The notes beneath the pieces were generated by a model. It ran no database searches. It saw only the letters and a program-made list of their open reading frames with translations, and was not told the origin of the DNA. This document shows, one piece after another, positions 2,273-37,803 of a DNA stretch of 46,146 bases. The stretch comes from Phycisphaeraceae bacterium. GTDB taxonomy: Bacteria; Planctomycetota; Phycisphaerae; Phycisphaerales; Phycisphaeraceae. The stretch spans positions 1-46,146 of the forward strand of contig JAHQVV010000164.1 of NCBI GenBank assembly GCA_019634195.1. Reading direction: 5' to 3'. Position 1 is the stretch's first letter, and each line of letters starts with the position of its first letter. A program made the position numbers and the translations under genes.

Positions 2273-4639
2273 TCAGGGCTGTAGGCCCTCAAGCTGCCTG
2301 ACAAACTGCGCGATGCCCGGGTCTTCGGGTAAGAGCTTCTGGGCTTCTTTGGCGTACTGAAGGGCGACGCCCTCTTCCTTTTGCTGCATGCTGTACTGTG
2401 CTAGCGCGATCAGCATCTGCGGGTCGTTGGGCGTCGTTTCCAGGCTCTTCTTCATAACGCCGATCGCCTGCACCGGCCGGCCCGTGTCGTGCAGCGCGAT
2501 GGCATAGGCGTATGCGATATCCGCGCGCCCCGGGGCTTTGGCGTACGCGTCCGACAGCAGGTTGATCGCCTCGCGGTAGTCGCGCTGGCGGATGAACAGC
2601 ATCGCCTTGCTGTAGAGCAGGTCCGGCTGTTTGGGTAGCTGGATGAGCCCCTTGTCCAGCAGGCGGATGGCCTCTTCAACCCTGCCCCCGTCTGCGTACA
2701 TCGTCGCGAGGTTGGCGTAGGCGGGGTAGAACGAGGGGTCGATCTCAAGGACACGGTTGAACTGGTCGATCGCCTGGCCGAAGTCGCCGAGCCGGTAGGC
2801 CAGCGTCCCGAGGTTCATCGTCGCTGCGGCGGTGTCGGCCGACACTTCTTGTGCCTTGCGGTACGACGCGATGCCCGCCTTGATGTTCTTGCGGTCCGCT
2901 TCGCTGACCCGGTCCTTGGGTACGTCGGCCAATGCCTCGCCCGCCTCGATACGGATCGATCGCAGCGGGTCGTCGAGCAGCTTCATCGCGGGGCCGACCC
3001 GTGCCTGGATGGGCATATCGCTGAGCACATCGGCCGCGGCGAGACGCACCATCGGTTCCTTATCGCTGAGCGCCTCCATCAGACCCTGGGCCGCAGCGCG
3101 CGTGGGGTACCGGCTGAGGTAGATCACCGCGGTGCCGCGCACGATGGCCGGCTGGTCCTCATCACGCAAGAGCTTGAGCAGCGCCGCGTCCGTGGCCGGC
3201 TGATTCTCCCGTGCCCGGTGGAAGACCTGTCCGTAGTGCTCATCTTGATCGATATCGACGCCCCACCAGAACGCCGCGTTCTCCGCCGCCCACTCAACGG
3301 TCTGCTCGGTGTGGCACTGGTTGCAGGCGTTGGGGGTGCCCAACTCCAGCGACAGGTCCGGCCGGGGGATGCGGAAGCTGTGGTCCCGTCGATCATCGAC
3401 ACCCATGTAGGTGCGGTGCGGCATGTGGCAGTTGATGCACGAATCGCCGCCCGAGCCCGGCGGGTGCTTGTGGTGCTCGTACGTGTCGAACTTGCTGGGC
3501 ATGTGGCACTTGGCGCACAGGTCGTTACTCAGCGTCGGCACACGCGCGGTGTGTGGGTCGTGGCAATCGACGCACGACACCCCCGCCATGTGCATCTTGC
3601 TCTGCACGAACGAGCCCCAGACGTAGACCTCGTCCTGGATCTGACCGTCGGGGAAGTACAGCCCCTCGGTCAGGTGCGACGGCCGGTAGTTGTCGTGGAA
3701 CGGCACGCCCGCGTCGCCGCCGTCGGCGATCTGCGACCGCCGCGAGTGGCACCGCGCACAGGCGTTGAGCACCTTGTCGTCTTTCATCGGCGTCGCGCGC
3801 TCGGCGATCCCCGTCTCCGGGTTCATCACCCACTGCCGGGCCTCATCTTTCAAACGCACGACCAGGCCCATGTCGCCCTTATCGATCGATGGGTCCGCGA
3901 CGTACAACTCAGCCCAGTCTTTGTGCGCCTCGCCCGGCCCGTGGCACGCCTCGCACGACACGTTGATCTCCGACCACATCGTCTTGTACGTGCCGGTCTT
4001 CACGTCGTAGTTCTTCTGTAGGTCCGTCGAGTGGCACTCGGCACACATGTGGTTCCACGTAAAGTTCGGCCCGGTCCAGTGCAGCGCATCGGTATGCGGC
4101 AGGTCCTCATCCGGGTACAGGTGGTACCAACGCTGCCCACCTTGTTCCTTCGGCCGACTGTCCCAGCAGATCGTCAGCGCTTGGATCTTCCCTCCCTCAA
4201 ACTCGACGAGGTACTGCTGCAGCGGCTCGATGCCGAAGGTGTACTTGATCTCAAAGTCGGCCATCTTCCCGTCGGGCCCGTCGGTGTGGACGAAGAACTT
4301 GCCGCCCTTCTTGAAGAAGCGCGAGGTGTTGCCCGAGTGGGTGAAGGTGGAGTCGTTGAAGTCGCCGATGACGGTGTTGTCGTTGGCCGGCTTCATCGCC
4401 GCGTCGTGGTGCGAGCCGACCCAGGACTCGTGTTCTTGTTGGTGGCACTCGGCGCAGGCGGCCGCGCCGATGAACCCGGCGGCCTTGTCCGAGACCGTGG
4501 TCGTCGTTGCGGCGCTCGATGTTTCTTCCTCGCCGCCGCCCGAGCAGGACACCGATGAGAACAGAATCCCCAGACCAGCCACGACCAGCAACAACCCCGC
4601 GGCGGGGGGCAAGAGAGCCATTCCTTTACGCATGGCCAC
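2273..4639 (-). CDS. Octahaem cytochrome c lipoprotein with HEAT and TPR repeats
   Basis: This 788-residue exported protein has a hydrophobic N-terminus ending in SSVSC followed by Ser/Gly, a probable but imperfect lipobox at Cys32. Eight CxxCH haem motifs start at about residues 62, 199, 229, 294, 356, 375, 401 and 439, in a cytochrome c554-like arrangement (GFIGAAACAECH, CEACHGPGEAH, CVDCHDPH, CINCHMPH). HEAT-like repeats with DEDQPAIVRGTAVIYL and KEPMVRLAAADVL patterns follow at about 480-600, then four or so TPRs (about 610-780). The likely role is periplasmic electron transfer within a protein complex. No substrate can be assigned and the redox partner is not in the window. Haem attachment needs a Ccm system that is not seen here. 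An in-frame Met two codons later is an alternative start. Confidence 0.88.
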   Translation of the reverse strand: MAMRKGMALLPPAAGLLLVVAGLGILFSSVSCSGGGEEETSSAATTTTVSDKAAGFIGAAACAECHQQEHESWVGSHHDAAMKPANDNTVIGDFNDSTFTHSGNTSRFFKKGGKFFVHTDGPDGKMADFEIKYTFGIEPLQQYLVEFEGGKIQALTICWDSRPKEQGGQRWYHLYPDEDLPHTDALHWTGPNFTWNHMCAECHSTDLQKNYDVKTGTYKTMWSEINVSCEACHGPGEAHKDWAELYVADPSIDKGDMGLVVRLKDEARQWVMNPETGIAERATPMKDDKVLNACARCHSRRSQIADGGDAGVPFHDNYRPSHLTEGLYFPDGQIQDEVYVWGSFVQSKMHMAGVSCVDCHDPHTARVPTLSNDLCAKCHMPSKFDTYEHHKHPPGSGGDSCINCHMPHRTYMGVDDRRDHSFRIPRPDLSLELGTPNACNQCHTEQTVEWAAENAAFWWGVDIDQDEHYGQVFHRARENQPATDAALLKLLRDEDQPAIVRGTAVIYLSRYPTRAAAQGLMEALSDKEPMVRLAAADVLSDMPIQARVGPAMKLLDDPLRSIRIEAGEALADVPKDRVSEADRKNIKAGIASYRKAQEVSADTAAATMNLGTLAYRLGDFGQAIDQFNRVLEIDPSFYPAYANLATMYADGGRVEEAIRLLDKGLIQLPKQPDLLYSKAMLFIRQRDYREAINLLSDAYAKAPGRADIAYAYAIALHDTGRPVQAIGVMKKSLETTPNDPQMLIALAQYSMQQKEEGVALQYAKEAQKLLPEDPGIAQFVRQLEGLQP

Positions 4640-20021: not shown

Positions 20022-21941
20022 TCACTCCGAAGATGATGTTGTAAGCTCGGTTTTGATGAGTACCCGGCACGGCTGGTCGGTGAAGCCTTCAATGACCTGG
20101 TCGAGTTCGACACCGAGTAGCGATGTGTTGGCGTTTTCTTTTGCTGTGATGATGACGGTGTAGTGCGGCACCGCGTCCTTGCCGGGCTTCTTCTCGATCG
20201 TGCTGAGGCTGACACCCTCGCGTTCGTCGACGACTTCCTGGATCTCGGCCATCAGGTCCTCGTTGATGTCCGGCTTGGGCAGCGAGTCGTAGAGGAAGTA
20301 GATCAGCGGGATGGACAGGATCACCGCGCCGACGGTCAGGCCCATGATGGCGTGGCGGGTCCATCGTTTTTCGCGCGCGTGCAGGTGCTGGGCCTGCATG
20401 CCGACGGCGAAGAGCGCGGCGGCGGCGCCGAGGACGATGGCGATGATGTTGGTGAAGAAGAGCATCGCCGCGCCGGCGGAGGTGACCAGGTCGCCGTGCG
20501 CGAGCGCGACGCCGGAGGTCGCGATGGGCGGGACGAGGGCGGCGGCGATGGCAACACCCGGCAGCGCGCCTAAAAGGTTCGGGCGTGCGGTCGCGTATGC
20601 CGCGGCGATGCCGGAGATCAGTGCGACGGCCAGGTCCAGCGCGTTGGGCTTGCCCCGGCTGAGCATCTCGCCGGTGAGGCCCGCGTGCGGGATGATCATG
20701 CCCATCAGCATCGCCAGCAGCAGCGCGACCAGGAACCCCAGCAGCACGGACTTGCTGGCATTGCGCATCAAGAACCCGTTGCCCTGCACGACGGCCAGGC
20801 CGCAGCCGATCAGCGGCGTCATCAGCGGCGCGACGAGCATCGCGCCGATCACCACGGCGGTAGAGTTCTGCATCAGCCCGAGCGTCGCGATCGCGGTGGA
20901 CAGGCAGATCAGCGCGATGAAGTCGACGTTCCACTGGCTGGCGTTCTGCACCCGCTCGACGAGGGACACGCGGTCCTCGCGTTCGAGCTGCGGGATGCCG
21001 CGGCTAAAGAGCTGGCGGACGCGCTCGGCGGTGGCGGTCATCAGCGGCTTGGGCTGGCGGACGACCCCGAGCGTCAGGCCCGTCTCGTCGTTGAGCACCT
21101 CGTTGGGGATCATCGAGAACAGGGCCTTGCGGGCGTGCCACTGGTTCGCCGCGCCGATGAGGACCAGTTCGTAAGACCCTCGCTCGACGGTGCGCGACAG
21201 GCCCTTGCGGAAGTCCTTAGCGATCTCGACGACCGGCCGGACCTTGTGCTCGCTGGGCTTGTCGCCGACCGCGCGCTTGATCGCCTTGTCCAGCAGTCTT
21301 CGGCCGACCATTTCGGCTTCGGGGCCGATGGCTGGCTCGATGTACAGCGCGTCGACCCCCGCGGGCCCGGCCTCGTCGATCGCGCAGGTCGGGTCGGGCA
21401 GCTGCGTGATCTTGCTGGCCAGCTTGATCGCCTCGGTCGCGTGCGGCCCGCCAGACGTCGGGACCAGGATGCGCTGGCAGCGAGCGCCGGTCGTCTCCAA
21501 CCCCAGCCGGAGCAGCAGCACCATGCACGCCGCCTCGCGGAACAGCTTCACCGGCAGGGCTTCTTCGTCACCCTTTGCTTTCGCGTGCTTGGCGAGGACC
21601 AGCAGCTTCGTGCCGTGCTCGGCGATCGCTGCCAACAGCGCGTCACCCACCGCGTCGCCGCTGGTCTTCACCGCGAGGACCTCGACCTTCGGGCACGGCT
21701 CCGGCTCGTCGTCGGGGTGGTCCTCGGCCTCGACGTGCGCCGCGGCCATGCGCGCGTGGCTGTCGGTGTAGTCGCTCACCGCTGCACGGACGGAGGGGAG
21801 TGGCTCGGCGTCCTCGGCCGCGTCCTTGCTTATGGGCAATAGGGCGACGATGTCCTCGCCGCGCGCCCGCGCGCACTGCCACGCCCAGCCGACCATCGCC
21901 GACGCCTCGGACTGACTCGTTATCACGACCGCCACCGCCAT
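20022..21941 (-). CDS. Membrane protein: UspA-like N-terminal region fused to DUF389 domain
   Basis: The 639-residue product has two cytosolic universal-stress-protein-like regions. The first (1-150) starts MAVAVVITSQSEASAM; the second (about 155-320) contains CQRILVPTSGGPHATEAIKL and YELVLIGAANQWHA. A linker and a membrane domain (about 370-560) of the DUF389/TIGR00341 family follow, with LICLSTAIATLGLMQNSTAV, VIGAMLVAPLMTPLIGCGLA, PGVAIAAALVPPIATSGVAL and a further long hydrophobic helix. A soluble C-terminal domain ends it. DUF389 has no agreed function; stress sensing tied to a membrane domain is an inference. The start at 21941 lies 20 nt after the Lgt-like stop and matches the family start; a much longer in-frame extension overlaps that gene and is rejected. 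Confidence 0.84.
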   Translation of the reverse strand: MAVAVVITSQSEASAMVGWAWQCARARGEDIVALLPISKDAAEDAEPLPSVRAAVSDYTDSHARMAAAHVEAEDHPDDEPEPCPKVEVLAVKTSGDAVGDALLAAIAEHGTKLLVLAKHAKAKGDEEALPVKLFREAACMVLLLRLGLETTGARCQRILVPTSGGPHATEAIKLASKITQLPDPTCAIDEAGPAGVDALYIEPAIGPEAEMVGRRLLDKAIKRAVGDKPSEHKVRPVVEIAKDFRKGLSRTVERGSYELVLIGAANQWHARKALFSMIPNEVLNDETGLTLGVVRQPKPLMTATAERVRQLFSRGIPQLEREDRVSLVERVQNASQWNVDFIALICLSTAIATLGLMQNSTAVVIGAMLVAPLMTPLIGCGLAVVQGNGFLMRNASKSVLLGFLVALLLAMLMGMIIPHAGLTGEMLSRGKPNALDLAVALISGIAAAYATARPNLLGALPGVAIAAALVPPIATSGVALAHGDLVTSAGAAMLFFTNIIAIVLGAAAALFAVGMQAQHLHAREKRWTRHAIMGLTVGAVILSIPLIYFLYDSLPKPDINEDLMAEIQEVVDEREGVSLSTIEKKPGKDAVPHYTVIITAKENANTSLLGVELDQVIEGFTDQPCRVLIKTELTTSSSE

Positions 21942-21961
21942 GGGGATAGGGTAACGCGCGA

Positions 21962-22693
21962 TCAGGCGGCTGGCGGTGTCTTTGGCGTTGTCGGCGCTGC
22001 TGCGCGCTGTGCATAGCGAATAAAGCCCAGCGCGATCATCGCGATGGCCAGCAGTTGATAGCCCGTCAAGCCGGCGATTAGTGTCGGCGTGTCGCGGATG
22101 AATTCGTGCACGAAGCGGAACATGCCGTAGGCGATGAGGTAGAGGTGGAAGAGCTGGCCGGGCTGGAGGCGTTTGCGGACCATGATGGCGGAGACTGTCA
22201 AGGCGATTACGTTGAACAGCAGTTCGGTGATCGCGGCGGGGTAGTAGCTGCCGGTCGCGTCGGCGGATGCCCACCACGCGGGCTCGCAGGCGACGCCCTT
22301 GCAGCAGCCGTGCATCAGGCAGCCGATGCGCCCGAGGATGAGCCCGGCCGGGACCGCGAGCGCGAAGGTATCGCCGGTCGGCTGGTGGTAGCCGATGATT
22401 TTTTTACCGATCTCGACGCCCGCGTACCCGCCGAGCAGTGCGCCGGTGACGGTCTTGCCGACCAGCAGCTGCTGCCAGAACGTGCCGCGGTTCCAGATCG
22501 CTGGCCCCTCGGCAAAGAGGTAGCCGAGCTTCGCGCCGACGACCAGGCCGACGACCCCGCCGGCCAGCGCGACGGTGAGTTCAGGCCGGCCGTTCATGCG
22601 CTTGATCCAGAGCAGACCGCCGACGACAAAGCCGACGACGAGCATCATCCCGTAGCCCGGGCTCCAGAAGATGTGGCTGCTGCTTGCGATCAT
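21962..22693 (-). CDS. Prolipoprotein diacylglyceryl transferase (Lgt) family protein, divergent
   Basis: This 243-residue polytopic protein has about seven membrane segments. It begins HIFWSPGYGMMLVVGFVVGG and contains VAGLILGRIGCLMHGCCKGV-like Lgt-position residues: GRIGCLMHGCCKGVACEPAW at about 138-158. YYPAAITELLFNV and LFHLYLIAYGMFRFVHEFIR follow. The latter is the typical Lgt C-terminal block with the conserved Arg. Genuine Lgt has an Asn-rich loop (GRxGNFxNxExxG) where this protein has three cysteines, so it is Lgt-family but may not be the housekeeping Lgt. It could modify proteins or lipids with diacylglyceryl groups. The start at 22693 is chosen because upstream codons run through a repeat. 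It is followed closely by the UspA-DUF389 gene. Confidence 0.78.
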   Translation of the reverse strand: MIASSSHIFWSPGYGMMLVVGFVVGGLLWIKRMNGRPELTVALAGGVVGLVVGAKLGYLFAEGPAIWNRGTFWQQLLVGKTVTGALLGGYAGVEIGKKIIGYHQPTGDTFALAVPAGLILGRIGCLMHGCCKGVACEPAWWASADATGSYYPAAITELLFNVIALTVSAIMVRKRLQPGQLFHLYLIAYGMFRFVHEFIRDTPTLIAGLTGYQLLAIAMIALGFIRYAQRAAAPTTPKTPPAA

Positions 22694-22720
22694 GGCTTGG
22701 TGTATGGGATGAATGGCTTG

Positions 22721-22867
22721 TGGCTCGGGCTCCTTCTCCCTTTCAAGGAGAAGGCCGGGGATGAGGGTGGGGCGTGTAACAAACCAAGGCTTGTTCATTA
22801 TTCCGTTGTCTGCATGACGCTGGACCCTCACCCCAACCCTCTCCCTGGAAGGGAGAGGGAGTCGAGG
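22721..22867 (+). repeat. Long nested inverted repeat (family C, copy 1)
   Basis: About 147 bp lie between the radical SAM and Lgt-like genes. The left arm (22732-22772, CCTTCTCCCTTTCAAGGAGA...) and the right arm (22825-22859, CCCTCACCCCAACCCTCTCC...) are imperfect reverse complements over about 35 bp. Each arm holds its own hairpin, such as CCTCTCCCTGGAAGGGAGAGG. The second copy, in the same orientation, is at 37666-37803. The arrangement is MITE-like, but no target-site duplication is clear. Confidence 0.82.
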
Positions 22868-22875
22868 CAATCGCT

Positions 22876-24255
22876 TTACCGCATCGCGTAGTGCCGGCAG
22901 AACGATTCGAGCGAGCCGCCCTCGCCGACGACGTGTACGCAGCAGCGGTCGATGCGGTGCTGATCGTATGTCCACGCGTCCATGAACGGCTTGATGAACA
23001 GGCGCAACACATCGTCAGGCCCGATCTCCAATTGCTTGAGCACCTCGCCCAGCGGCTCGCTCTCGCAACCACACTTGCTCAGGTCTTCGAGGTTGAAATC
23101 GATCCGGTCTTTCAGGAAGCCCTGCATCGATTTGAAGTCAACGAGGCGCGAGACGGGCAGGGCCGTGTCGCCGCGGCGGAGCAGGTAGCCGACGGTGTGG
23201 CAGTTCGGGTCGCCGCAGGGCAGGGGTGTGAAGTCGTTTTCGCTGAGCAGGTGGTTGGATTGATCGATCAGCCCGAGGGCGATGTCCGCGACGGAGAGGC
23301 GCTGTGTCGGCGGGTGTTGCTTGTGTTCGGGCGTTGTTGATGCGCTGCCGTTGACCGTGAGGTTGACGCCCTCGTACGCCCGGCCGGAGCCGAACATCGG
23401 CTGGAAGGTGATGCCGCGGATCGCGGGGTGTTTGATCGCCAGGCGAAGTGTTTCGCCGAGCTGATCGGCGTTGTGCCCGTCTACGGTCATCGCGAGCGTG
23501 ACGGGGATGCCCAGATCTCCGCAGCGATCGAGCACGCGCGAGCGTAGCGCGCGGAGGTCTTTGCCGCGAAGTTCGATCTGGCCGGCTTCCTGCGGGCCGT
23601 CGTACTGCAGGTAGACCTCGAACTTTTTCAGGTCGCGGCGGAGCTCGCCGAGCTGCTCAACGAACCCGGGTTCGGCGGCGAGGCGCACGCCGTTGGTGTT
23701 CAGCAGCACGTAGCCGATGTCGCTGTGCTGTAGCGCCCAGCGCATCACGTCAAAGAACCGGGGGTGGATGGTGGGCTCGCCGCCGGACAGCTGGAGGATG
23801 TCGATCATGCCCTTGCGGTCGATGACGGACTGGATGCGCTGCTGGATGTCTTCGACCGGCAGGGCGGTGGCGTCGCTTTCCTGCGGGCTGTCGGCGTAGC
23901 AGGTCGGGCAACTGAGGTTGCAGCTCTCGACGATCTCGATCAGCGCGATGCAGGTGGAGCTGTGCTCGACGATGCCCGCGTTGTGGCCAACTGGGGCCGG
24001 TGTGCAGCACGCGCCGGCCGAGCAGTTGCAGCCGGTGGTTGGTTGCGTGTCCGCGCCGTGGGAGAGGTGGTAGAAGCGGTCGTCGGTGGAAAGGGTGGCC
24101 TCGAAGTGGCCGTGCGCAGCGCAGTGTTTTTTCATGACGACTTGTTTGCCGCGCTGGACAACCTCGGCGTCGATCTGTTCTTTGCAGACCGGGCACAGGC
24201 TGGTGGTGTGCTTGAGGTGCCGGTCGGCCGAGGTGTCGAGGGTGGTCAGTTGCAT
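22876..24255 (-). CDS. Radical SAM protein resembling archaeal tetraether lipid synthase (Tes/MJ0619 group)
   Basis: This 459-residue protein has a Cys-rich N-terminal module (SLCPVCKEQIDAEVVQ, KKHCAAHGHFE), then GCNCSAGACC and STCIALIEIVESCNLSCPTC carrying the CxxxCxxC cluster that binds SAM-cleaving Fe-S. DILQLSGGEPTIHPRFFDV is the radical SAM GGEP motif. The C-terminal region keeps further Cys groups seen in the archaeal family: LPCGDPNCHTVGYLL, CGCESEP, and the final RCCVHVVGEGGSLESFCRHY. This overall pattern matches the MJ0619 group, one archaeal member of which joins lipid tails into tetraethers. Whether this bacterial member does lipid C-C coupling is unknown. The start at 24255 has GGGAA upstream. 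It lies 17 nt after the zinc-ribbon membrane gene, so they form an operon. Confidence 0.8.
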   Translation of the reverse strand: MQLTTLDTSADRHLKHTTSLCPVCKEQIDAEVVQRGKQVVMKKHCAAHGHFEATLSTDDRFYHLSHGADTQPTTGCNCSAGACCTPAPVGHNAGIVEHSSTCIALIEIVESCNLSCPTCYADSPQESDATALPVEDIQQRIQSVIDRKGMIDILQLSGGEPTIHPRFFDVMRWALQHSDIGYVLLNTNGVRLAAEPGFVEQLGELRRDLKKFEVYLQYDGPQEAGQIELRGKDLRALRSRVLDRCGDLGIPVTLAMTVDGHNADQLGETLRLAIKHPAIRGITFQPMFGSGRAYEGVNLTVNGSASTTPEHKQHPPTQRLSVADIALGLIDQSNHLLSENDFTPLPCGDPNCHTVGYLLRRGDTALPVSRLVDFKSMQGFLKDRIDFNLEDLSKCGCESEPLGEVLKQLEIGPDDVLRLFIKPFMDAWTYDQHRIDRCCVHVVGEGGSLESFCRHYAMR

Positions 24256-24272
24256 GGTTGTTTCCCGGAAGG

Positions 24273-24755
24273 TCAATGGAAGTTGAGTGAGTTGAGCGCG
24301 ATCGCGCACCCGCCGAACGCGGCGAAGCCCATCAGCGCCGCCTGTGCGAGCCAGAGCACGACGCCCGCCCCGGCGTACTGGTCGCGCTTGCCCGCGCTGC
24401 CCGGCTTGGGGTGGTGGTAAGCCATTCGCTTGCAAACCGAGCCGGTTTTGATCACGGTCACCGGCAGCAGGATCAGGATCGCCAGCGGCATGGTGATCAG
24501 GCTGAGCATCGGGACGATCGAGCAGACGAAGACCACGATCCCCGGCCAGAGGATGTGCCAAACGACTTCGCCCGAGCTGATCGGCGGGGGGACCGGCTTG
24601 CGCGACAACAGGTCGGCGACAAAGCTCTCGCCACACTCGGGGCAGGTCGATCGCCGGCCGGGGTCCCAGTCGGAGGTCGGCCCAACGTTGTAGCCACAGC
24701 GCGGGCAGTCCAGCCGGGGGGCGTCGGGGTCGGGATGGTTGTTTAGGGTGTTCAC
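24273..24755 (-). CDS. Small zinc-ribbon membrane protein
   Basis: The 160-residue product has an N-terminal double CxxC zinc ribbon: LDCPRCGYNV, then STCPECGESFV at about 15-48. Two clustered membrane segments follow (about 66-105, WHILWPGIVVFVCSIVPMLS, LAILILLPVTVI), and a further segment ends it (about 130-155). The zinc ribbon plus hydrophobic core is common in planctomycete membrane proteins of unknown function. It starts with GTG and is preceded by a good promoter, so it heads the operon with the radical SAM protein. No function can be assigned; a scaffold or regulator of the membrane partner is speculation. Confidence 0.72.
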   Translation of the reverse strand: MNTLNNHPDPDAPRLDCPRCGYNVGPTSDWDPGRRSTCPECGESFVADLLSRKPVPPPISSGEVVWHILWPGIVVFVCSIVPMLSLITMPLAILILLPVTVIKTGSVCKRMAYHHPKPGSAGKRDQYAGAGVVLWLAQAALMGFAAFGGCAIALNSLNFH

Positions 24756-24765
24756 GGTTATTTAA

Positions 24766-24781
24766 GTAAGCATAAACTTAC
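24766..24781. promoter_or_regulatory. Operator-like inverted repeat over promoter -10
   Basis: GTAAG-CATAAA-CTTAC is a perfect 5-bp inverted repeat with a 6-nt spacer. Its end overlaps the -10 box of the minus-strand promoter at 24780-24807. A repressor site is an inference from position alone. Confidence 0.35.
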
Positions 24782-24807
24782 AATATAAAATTCCTCGTGG
24801 GTGTCAA
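24780..24807 (-). promoter_or_regulatory. Sigma-70-type promoter of the zinc-ribbon/radical SAM operon
   Basis: Read on the minus strand, TTGACA (24807-24802) is followed after a 16-nt spacer by TATTGT (24785-24780). The region is AT-rich in an otherwise GC-rich genome. Transcription would start about 18-20 nt before the GTG codon, leaving a very short leader. Confidence 0.6.
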
Positions 24808-33438: not shown

Positions 33439-33473
33439 CCCGCGTTGCATGCTTCTGCATCAACGCGGGTTTT
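33439..33473 (+). terminator. Intrinsic terminator of the lipoprotein gene
   Basis: CCCGCGTTG pairs with CAACGCGGG (9 bp), with an inner ATGC-TTCT-GCAT hairpin and one bulged C, followed by TTTT. It lies 23 nt after the lipoprotein stop and before the CPBP gene. Confidence 0.75.
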
Positions 33474-33601
33474 GTGTGTGGGTCTCGCGCGGCGGCACCG
33501 GCCCGATAAGCCCCGGAATCGGCCCGCACGCCGGCACAGGCGGGGCCTTGATGCGGTACATTCCTCGCGTTGCCCGCCGATCTTGCCGAAGAAACCACCA
33601 C

Positions 33602-34648
33602 GTGAGTGACGACCCTTCAAACCCAACGCCGGCCAAGCCTGCTGCGCCCGATTCGCTGTTAACGCGGCTTGATCGCTGGATGGCCGAGAACCCCTGGCAC
33701 CCGCGCGCGACGCCGTTCTTCGTCTACATGATCGGCATCCTCATCGGTGGCCTGATCTACGGCGGGTCGTTCGGCATGCCCGAGGTGCCCGTGCTCATCC
33801 CCGTCATCTACACGCTGCAGGTCGGCATCGTCGTCGCCCTGCTCTGGCGGTACCGCGGGCTGCTGCCCGAACTTAACCTCAGGTTCCACTGGCTGGCGGT
33901 GCCCACCGGCATCGCCCTCTGTTTCGCGTGGGTCTACCTCGGCTACGCGAGCAACTGGGCGGTGCATCAGCTCCAGGGCATCCCACGGCTCGGCGAGTTC
34001 GCCGCCTGGCTCGTGCCCACCCACGAACAGTTCCCCGCCCATGCCGGCGACTGGTTCGTGCCGACCGAGCAGTCGTCGGCCAACCTCAGCACCGACAACA
34101 GCATCCACGACAACCGCGCCGCGCTGGGCGATGCCTGGTACTGGTCGACGATGGGCTTAAGGCTGCTGGGCATGTCGATCGCGGTGCCCCTGTTCGAAGA
34201 GCTCTGGGTGCGGTCGGCGGTGCTGCGCGGGGGGTTTCGCGCGGGCAAGACGAAGACGGCGTTCCTCCAGCTCGCGTCCGACCTGCCGATCCTCGGCGAG
34301 TGGGTCAGCGGCACGAAGGCCGGCCGGCGTGCCGCGAAAGAGCCGCCGATGTTTACCCGGCAGCTGCAGGAGACGGCCGTCGGCCGGATCAGCCTGTTCG
34401 CGGTCTGCTTCTCGACGCTGGTGTTCATGCTCGCGCACGCCCGGCGGGACTACCTGGGCTGCATCGCCTGCGGTGTGGTGTGGTGCCTGCTGGTGTGGTG
34501 GACGAACAAACCGAAGAAGGGCGAGGCCTGGGCCGACCAGCCCGCCGGCGGCCGCTACGGCCTGGGCCCGATCGTCTGGAGCCACGGCATCACCAACGCC
34601 GCGCTCTGGGCGTGGACGCTGCAGACGGGCGATTGGCAGTTTCTTTGA
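33602..34648 (+). CDS. CPBP-family (CAAX-like) intramembrane metalloprotease
   Basis: The 348-residue product has about seven or eight membrane segments. The family motifs are VPLFEELWVRSAVLRGG (EE-x3-R, metal/catalytic Glu), FMLAHARRDYLGCIACGVVW (His) and IVWSHGITNAALW (His). This gives the membrane-embedded active site of CPBP/Rce1-like proteases, which cleave membrane-bound substrates or act on processed peptides. The start is uncertain: I chose GTG at 33602 (VSDDPSNPTPAKP); the frame stays open upstream, including an ATG at 33551. It is convergent with the prepilin operon, with 17 nt between the stops. Confidence 0.8.
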   Translation: MSDDPSNPTPAKPAAPDSLLTRLDRWMAENPWHPRATPFFVYMIGILIGGLIYGGSFGMPEVPVLIPVIYTLQVGIVVALLWRYRGLLPELNLRFHWLAVPTGIALCFAWVYLGYASNWAVHQLQGIPRLGEFAAWLVPTHEQFPAHAGDWFVPTEQSSANLSTDNSIHDNRAALGDAWYWSTMGLRLLGMSIAVPLFEELWVRSAVLRGGFRAGKTKTAFLQLASDLPILGEWVSGTKAGRRAAKEPPMFTRQLQETAVGRISLFAVCFSTLVFMLAHARRDYLGCIACGVVWCLLVWWTNKPKKGEAWADQPAGGRYGLGPIVWSHGITNAALWAWTLQTGDWQFL

Positions 34649-37665: not shown

Positions 37666-37803
37666 ATGGCTCGGGCTTTAGGGAGAAGGAGGGGGATGAG
37701 GATCGGGCGTGAAGCAGACCGCGGCTTGTTCTGTATTTCATTGTGAAGACGACGCCGGACCCTCACCCCAACCCTCCCCCTGGAAGGGAGAGGGGGCAAG
37801 GCA
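37666..37803 (+). repeat. Long nested inverted repeat (family C, copy 2)
   Basis: It matches the copy at 22721-22867 along most of its length: TGGCTCGGGCT, GGAGAAGG, GGGGATGAGG, GGCTTGTTC and GGACCCTCACCCCAACCC. It ends with CCCTGGAAGGGAGAGGG. The left arm has lost part of its internal hairpin. It lies 3' of clpB, about 40 nt after the stop. Confidence 0.82.

Follow-up and report, generated by a model that had tools for sequence, protein, structure and literature searches.

Results

A radical SAM gene, an Lgt-like gene and a small membrane protein gene at one locus

The window analyzed here is the whole 46,146-nt stretch of contig JAHQVV010000164.1 (assembly GCA_019634195.1) of a Phycisphaeraceae bacterium, whose draft genome comprises 3.6 Mb in 246 contigs; the named close homologues of the window are from Phycisphaerae. 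On its minus strand, a radical S-adenosylmethionine (SAM) protein related to the archaeal tetraether synthase (Tes) is encoded between a small membrane protein and a relative of the lipoprotein-modifying enzyme Lgt, and these three genes form a module that spans several bacterial phyla. A first-pass annotation had listed four genes at this locus, all of which are present, in the 5'→3' order small membrane protein, radical SAM protein, Lgt-family protein and DUF389 protein. The features are as follows.

24273..24755, minus strand: small membrane protein with an N-terminal zinc ribbon and three transmembrane helices (3-TM), 160 aa, GTG start; proposed client or partner
24306..24308, minus strand: codon of the conserved C-terminal cysteine (Cys150) of the small membrane protein, counted from the translation and the motif analysis
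22876..24255, minus strand: Tes-like radical SAM protein of a new clade, 459 aa (P0001)
22694..22875, minus strand: intergenic gap of 182 nt holding a dispersed repeat; an insertion outside the system
21962..22693, minus strand: Lgt-like membrane protein with the motif GRIGC(x4)CC(x4)C, the divergent second Lgt of the genome (Pfam LGT; model compared with 5AZB)
20022..21941, minus strand: UspA-like/DUF389 protein (Pfam DUF389, 1.6e-33)

Pfam assigned Radical_SAM (9.8e-16) and HMPTM zinc ribbon (1.7e-16) matches to the radical SAM protein and an above-cut-off LGT match (PF01790, 7.2e-26) to the Lgt-like protein. The Lgt-like gene likely starts at the ATG at 22693, with the open frame extending further.

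The radical SAM protein resembles Tes and belongs to a separate clade

The cysteine pattern by which the first-pass annotation had related the radical SAM protein to Tes was found in full, as C112xxxC116xxC119, LPCGDPNC at residues 345-352 and CCVH...FC at residues 438-453. These cysteines are invariant in 86 homologues, except that the last is present in 85 of them, with a gap in the remaining sequence. The relationship itself was borne out as well, since Tes of M. jannaschii (GDGT-MAS, MJ0619, 7TOL/7TOM) is the best match among solved structures both by sequence (1.3e-36) and by fold. An AlphaFold2 model built from 46 homologues (pLDDT 84, pTM 0.86) aligned with 7TOM over 394 residues at 2.9 Å with a Z of 38.1, the next fold following at Z 19.4; as modeled, the protein has the tetraether-synthase fold along its whole length. 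It shares with Tes the CX3CX2C motif and the C-terminal auxiliary-cluster domain, and it retains the radical SAM cysteines and the rubredoxin-type site, which is formed by C9/C12/C33/H36 in Tes and by C21/C24/C45/H48 here.

Placement within the Tes clade proper, however, was not supported. The protein missed the cut-offs of both of its best-scoring named families in NCBIfam, namely TrsS, a radical SAM (seleno)protein (NF045646, 224.8 bits against a cut-off of 490), and Tes (NF045702, 170.7 bits against 450). Furthermore, Met439, a labile FeS ligand, and Tyr459, both of which are completely conserved across 1000 archaeal homologues (PMC9433317), correspond in the alignment to Lys422 and Val442 in all 86 clade members, and the clade has the additional invariant cysteines C102, C347, C395 and C397. 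Because the Tes single mutants M439A, Y459F and Y459L kept their activity (PMC9433317), the loss of these residues marks a different subfamily and not a dead enzyme. In a tree whose archaeal side consisted of the solved M. jannaschii Tes sequence and plasmid-borne relatives, the clade stands alone with a Shimodaira-Hasegawa-like approximate likelihood ratio support of 100, a value obtained by a quick method with a single, part-length archaeal Tes included. We conclude that the radical SAM protein of the window and its clade of 86 are not Tes.

The Tes fold and family of this protein would suit a bacterial pathway for membrane-spanning lipids. In such a pathway, the radical SAM enzyme, like Tes, would join two phospholipids through their tails, remodeling or transfer of head groups would fall to the Lgt-like protein, and the role of the small proteins would be only that of scaffolds or chaperones. 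Synthesis of branched glycerol dialkyl glycerol tetraethers by bacterial Tes homologues has been proposed, and Planctomycetota have been put forward as candidates (PMC8941075, PMC11868695). We nonetheless consider this pathway unlikely, given that Met439 and Tyr459 are gone throughout the clade, that the extra invariant cysteines (C347 and C395/C397) suggest a different cluster chemistry, and that the recurring, often tandem proteins with a C-terminal cysteine described below would be left unexplained.

A second Lgt with an altered active site

The source genome encodes two Lgt proteins: a separate canonical one, which three cultured carriers of the module among the Verrucomicrobia have as well, and, as a second and altered one, the Lgt-like protein. 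Its model aligned with E. coli Lgt (5AZB) over 220 residues at 5.1 Å with a Z of 13.5, compared with 6.5 for the next unrelated match, and its sequence scored below the NCBIfam Lgt cut-offs (67.7 against 334 bits and 41.1 against 118.9 bits). Across 74 members, eight donor-pocket residues are retained (Y26, D129, R143, G154, Y235, R239, E243 and R246 in E. coli Lgt numbering), and R143, R239, Y26, Y235 and E243 are each present in at least 71 of the 74. In contrast, H103 is replaced by Thr, Leu, Val or Met, and N146, E151 and L152 are all cysteine in every member; four cysteines in the arrangement C-x4-CC-x4-C stand in the catalytic loop at the active site. In E. coli Lgt, mutants of H103 and E151 are inactive, while R143 and R239 are catalytic residues of the donor pocket (PMC4728403). 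With R143, R239 and E243 kept and H103 and E151 lost, the donor side looks preserved and the acceptor or catalytic side re-made.

The same loss of H103 and E151, together with the gain of the C-x4-CC-x4-C motif, could point to a thiol-redox or metal module, in which the cysteine of the small proteins would join the four of the Lgt-like protein in a disulfide, metal or electron path, the Lgt-like protein having given up lipid transfer. Many of the small proteins carry zinc-ribbon domains, which would fit such a role; however, many of the verrucomicrobial ones have none, and R143, R239, E243, R246 and Y235 are almost invariant, which would be needless in a protein devoted to redox chemistry. We regard this explanation as highly improbable.

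The two enzyme genes are linked across genomes

Conservation of the link between the radical SAM gene and the Lgt-like gene, which the first-pass annotation had singled out as a check on their association, was found on a broad scale. Of 80 named loci from Planctomycetota, Verrucomicrobiota and Hydrogenedentota, 68 have the two genes side by side, on the same strand in every case and with the Lgt-like gene directly downstream in 67, mostly at a distance of 130 bp or less. Several of the 12 loci without an adjacent Lgt-like gene are contig ends, and all 11 genomes that were fully checked encode an Lgt-like protein, including five that have no adjacent copy despite room for one. Among 392 planctomycete genomes, the radical SAM gene was detected in 58, the Lgt-like gene in 46 and both in 38 (hypergeometric P ~3e-30, relatedness ignored); in 36 of these 38 genomes the two genes lie within 1.5 kb of each other, in either order. 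The order is frequently reversed in divergent planctomycetes, which suggests that the linkage was either retained or re-formed. Relatives from Bacteroidota and Actinomycetota (Persicobacter and Nonomuraea) also have an Lgt-like gene, located just upstream. A mirror-tree correlation (r 0.78) was set aside as evidence because shared descent accounts for it.

Relatives that also match TrsS or branch nearby differ in their neighborhood: in haloarchaeal plasmid relatives and one mycobacterial relative (L146, L148 and L149), a methyltransferase gene directly follows the radical SAM gene, replacing the Lgt-like gene that the window clade adjoins. GCC-type Lgt-like proteins are not strictly tied to the radical SAM gene, since some copies stand alone, and four such planctomycete genes with no radical SAM partner (L157, L158, L162 and L164) represent a wider altered-Lgt family.

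Small membrane proteins with a C-terminal cysteine are part of the module

The zinc-ribbon membrane protein, which the first-pass annotation had named without recognizing it as a recurrent component, belongs to the module. At 69 of the 76 loci with room for it, the gene immediately preceding that of the radical SAM protein encodes a small membrane protein, and 64 of these 69 proteins have [GAST]C within the last 30 aa, as opposed to 21 of 90 unrelated small membrane open reading frames. A stricter motif was present at 58 of 76 loci versus 7 of 179 in the background, where at least two of the seven matches (a tandem pair at L051) are themselves family members; at least two proteins with this motif are encoded at 21 loci, and at least three at five loci. 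The proteins, of which there are one to six per locus, are mostly 3-TM, and their last helix is followed by [GAST]-Cys and then a short tail; the consensus is F-[GA]-[GAS]-C-L, and the tail is mostly 5-16 residues long (range 2-21 aa). In 85 motifs, the position preceding the cysteine was Gly in 48, Ala in 19, Ser in 12, Thr in five and Pro in one, although the strict-motif search itself required one of these five residues, so that only their relative shares carry information. In the window protein, the last helix ends FAAFGGC-AIALNSLNFH, the cysteine being Cys150. Two tandem small proteins (YFAGGC and YFFGGC) are encoded at a locus from the same genus, and four in Chthoniobacter.

No family scored above its cut-off in a Pfam scan of the small proteins, and the zinc ribbon was ruled out as their defining feature because it is missing in many verrucomicrobial members. 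In close pairs, the ratio of nonsynonymous to synonymous substitution rates (dN/dS) is <0.4, which indicates that these are real genes. The loop preceding the last helix is rich in Lys and Arg (18.5%, versus 7.5% and 4.3%), and from this charge bias the C-terminal cysteine is predicted to lie outside, in the periplasm, on the same side as the Lgt active site. Divergent sequences that share one terminal motif and vary in copy number beside constant enzymes are what would be expected of clients.

At one divergent locus (L037), six tandem small membrane proteins, most of them with a helix, a cysteine and a short tail, are encoded right after the radical SAM gene, 1.3-3.7 kb past its start in gene orientation. 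The Lgt-like protein there has no GCC motif, which contradicts a candidate association between loss of that motif and absence of the small proteins.

Clients with these properties could also be acted on directly by the radical SAM enzyme, which would crosslink them at the C-terminal cysteine in the way that maturases of ribosomally synthesized and post-translationally modified peptides act on their precursors, while the Lgt-like protein would add or present the joined lipid. Tandem, diverse proteins with a single conserved terminal motif do resemble precursors, and where the Lgt-like gene lies elsewhere, it is the radical SAM gene that the small genes accompany. However, the closest solved structures are those of lipid enzymes, with the peptide maturases SuiB and SkfB far behind at Z 19, and the cysteine is predicted to be across the membrane from the cytoplasmic radical SAM enzyme. 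Direct modification of this kind therefore seems to us quite unlikely.

Discussion

A candidate lipid or lipoprotein modification system

We tentatively favor, at somewhat less than an even chance, a dedicated lipid or lipoprotein modification system in which the small cysteine proteins would be clients, the Lgt-like enzyme would move a glycerolipid, and the radical SAM enzyme would couple or modify an alkyl chain. The clients would be the small, mostly 3-TM proteins. At the end of their last helix they carry [F/hydrophobic]-[G/A]-[G/A/S]-Cys, followed by a short tail, and the cysteine is predicted to be periplasmic. The altered Lgt, having kept its fold and donor pocket, could act in the outer leaflet as a glycerolipid transferase, the simplest acceptor being the C-terminal cysteine, and its four added cysteines may replace the lost His103 and Glu151 chemistry. 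The Tes-like radical SAM enzyme would hold an alkyl chain in a pocket as Tes does and form a radical bond on that chain from the cytoplasmic face, yielding a coupled or crosslinked lipid or lipopeptide. The data establish that the module exists and is conserved, which folds its enzymes have and which residues they retain or have lost; the lipid nature of the substrate, its transfer onto the cysteine and the order of the steps are what we infer from these features. A more specific proposal, conceivable but doubtful, is a bacterial post-translational system of a new kind: small polytopic membrane proteins would receive, on their C-terminal cysteine, a lipid anchor that is modified by radical chemistry and possibly spans the membrane, built jointly by a Tes-like radical enzyme and the re-engineered Lgt.

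Several observations weigh against the favored system. H103 and E151, which E. coli Lgt requires, are missing, and with them any assurance that the reaction is the same; GCC-type Lgt-like genes are also found without the radical SAM gene. Hydrophobic residues after the cysteine and Phe, not Leu, at position -3 mean that the small proteins have no canonical lipobox. The small protein of the window narrowly misses the strict hydrophobicity cut-off, about a fifth of the loci lack the strict motif, and no small protein was seen at three loci (L039, L042 and L045). At two loci where the enzyme genes are apart (L103 and L068), the small protein gene accompanies that of the radical SAM protein and none is found beside the lone Lgt-like gene, which hints at a client of the radical SAM enzyme. 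Finally, no lipid data were found for any carrier strain.

Relation to known systems

Two known cysteine-centered signals bear comparison with the small proteins. As in a lipobox, Gly, Ala, Ser or Thr precedes the cysteine, which is predicted to lie where a hydrophobic helix reaches the outer face of the membrane; unlike in a lipobox, Phe is the commonest residue at -3, positions +1 to +4 are hydrophobic, and no polar or soluble domain follows the cysteine. MYXO-CTERM and related C-terminal sorting signals similarly have an invariant cysteine near the C-terminus of a membrane-anchored protein, and lipidation by an Lgt-like enzyme has been proposed for them (PMC11980579). In those signals, however, the cysteine comes before the helix and an Arg-rich tail, whereas in the proteins described here, which are small, polytopic and linked to a Tes-like enzyme, the helix comes before the cysteine. 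The radical SAM protein in turn differs from Tes in its partners, an Lgt-like protein and small cysteine proteins, as well as in its sequence.

Both enzymes are from known superfamilies; the three-part module, like the clade and the altered Lgt within it, appears to be undescribed. A search of the open-access literature found no description of any of the three, subscription papers being outside that search and absence being no proof, and it found no paper linking Lgt, tetraethers and radical SAM, or Lgt, radical SAM and Verrucomicrobia. Hundreds of bacterial genomes encode Tes homologues, for which no function has been demonstrated, and these homologues have been used to guess which bacteria make the branched tetraether lipids that are the basis of palaeoclimate proxies (PMC8941075, PMC11868695). 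That a large Tes-like branch in bacteria is not Tes and is tied to an altered Lgt and small cysteine proteins calls for caution in reading such genes as tetraether markers. The module offers a handle on the role of these bacterial "Tes homologues," and its presence in cultured strains, among them Chthoniobacter flavus, Haloferula sp. BvORR071 and Roseibacillus persicicus, makes their function testable.

Other features of the locus and the window

The 182-nt gap with a repeat that the first-pass annotation had reported is present; it lies between the radical SAM and Lgt-like genes and is filled by a dispersed intergenic repeat of ~145 bp, of which the genome holds ~20 near-full-length copies at 75-83% identity. 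The loci of relatives mostly have short gaps at this position, and the repeat is an insertion and no component of the system. Within the window, the repeat occurs at 22694-22875 and 37682-37803; across the genome it matches on both strands, which gives it an inverted-repeat character.

As for the gene at the end of the cluster, proposed earlier to be a UspA-DUF389 fusion, the DUF389 part is supported, whereas the Usp part rests on a sub-threshold match (0.0027). Its suggested membership in the system was rejected, since DUF389 is nearby only in the same genus, ~4 kb off. A defense-system reading was also rejected, the only matches in that direction being weak and generic ones to viperin.

Elsewhere in the window, a CPBP/Rce1-like membrane protease of the myxosortase superfamily (PF02517, 6.1e-6) is encoded at 33449-34648, ~9 kb from the locus and with no link to it shown. 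At 2273-4639, a multihaem cytochrome (c554/c7-like) is fused to HEAT and TPR repeats.

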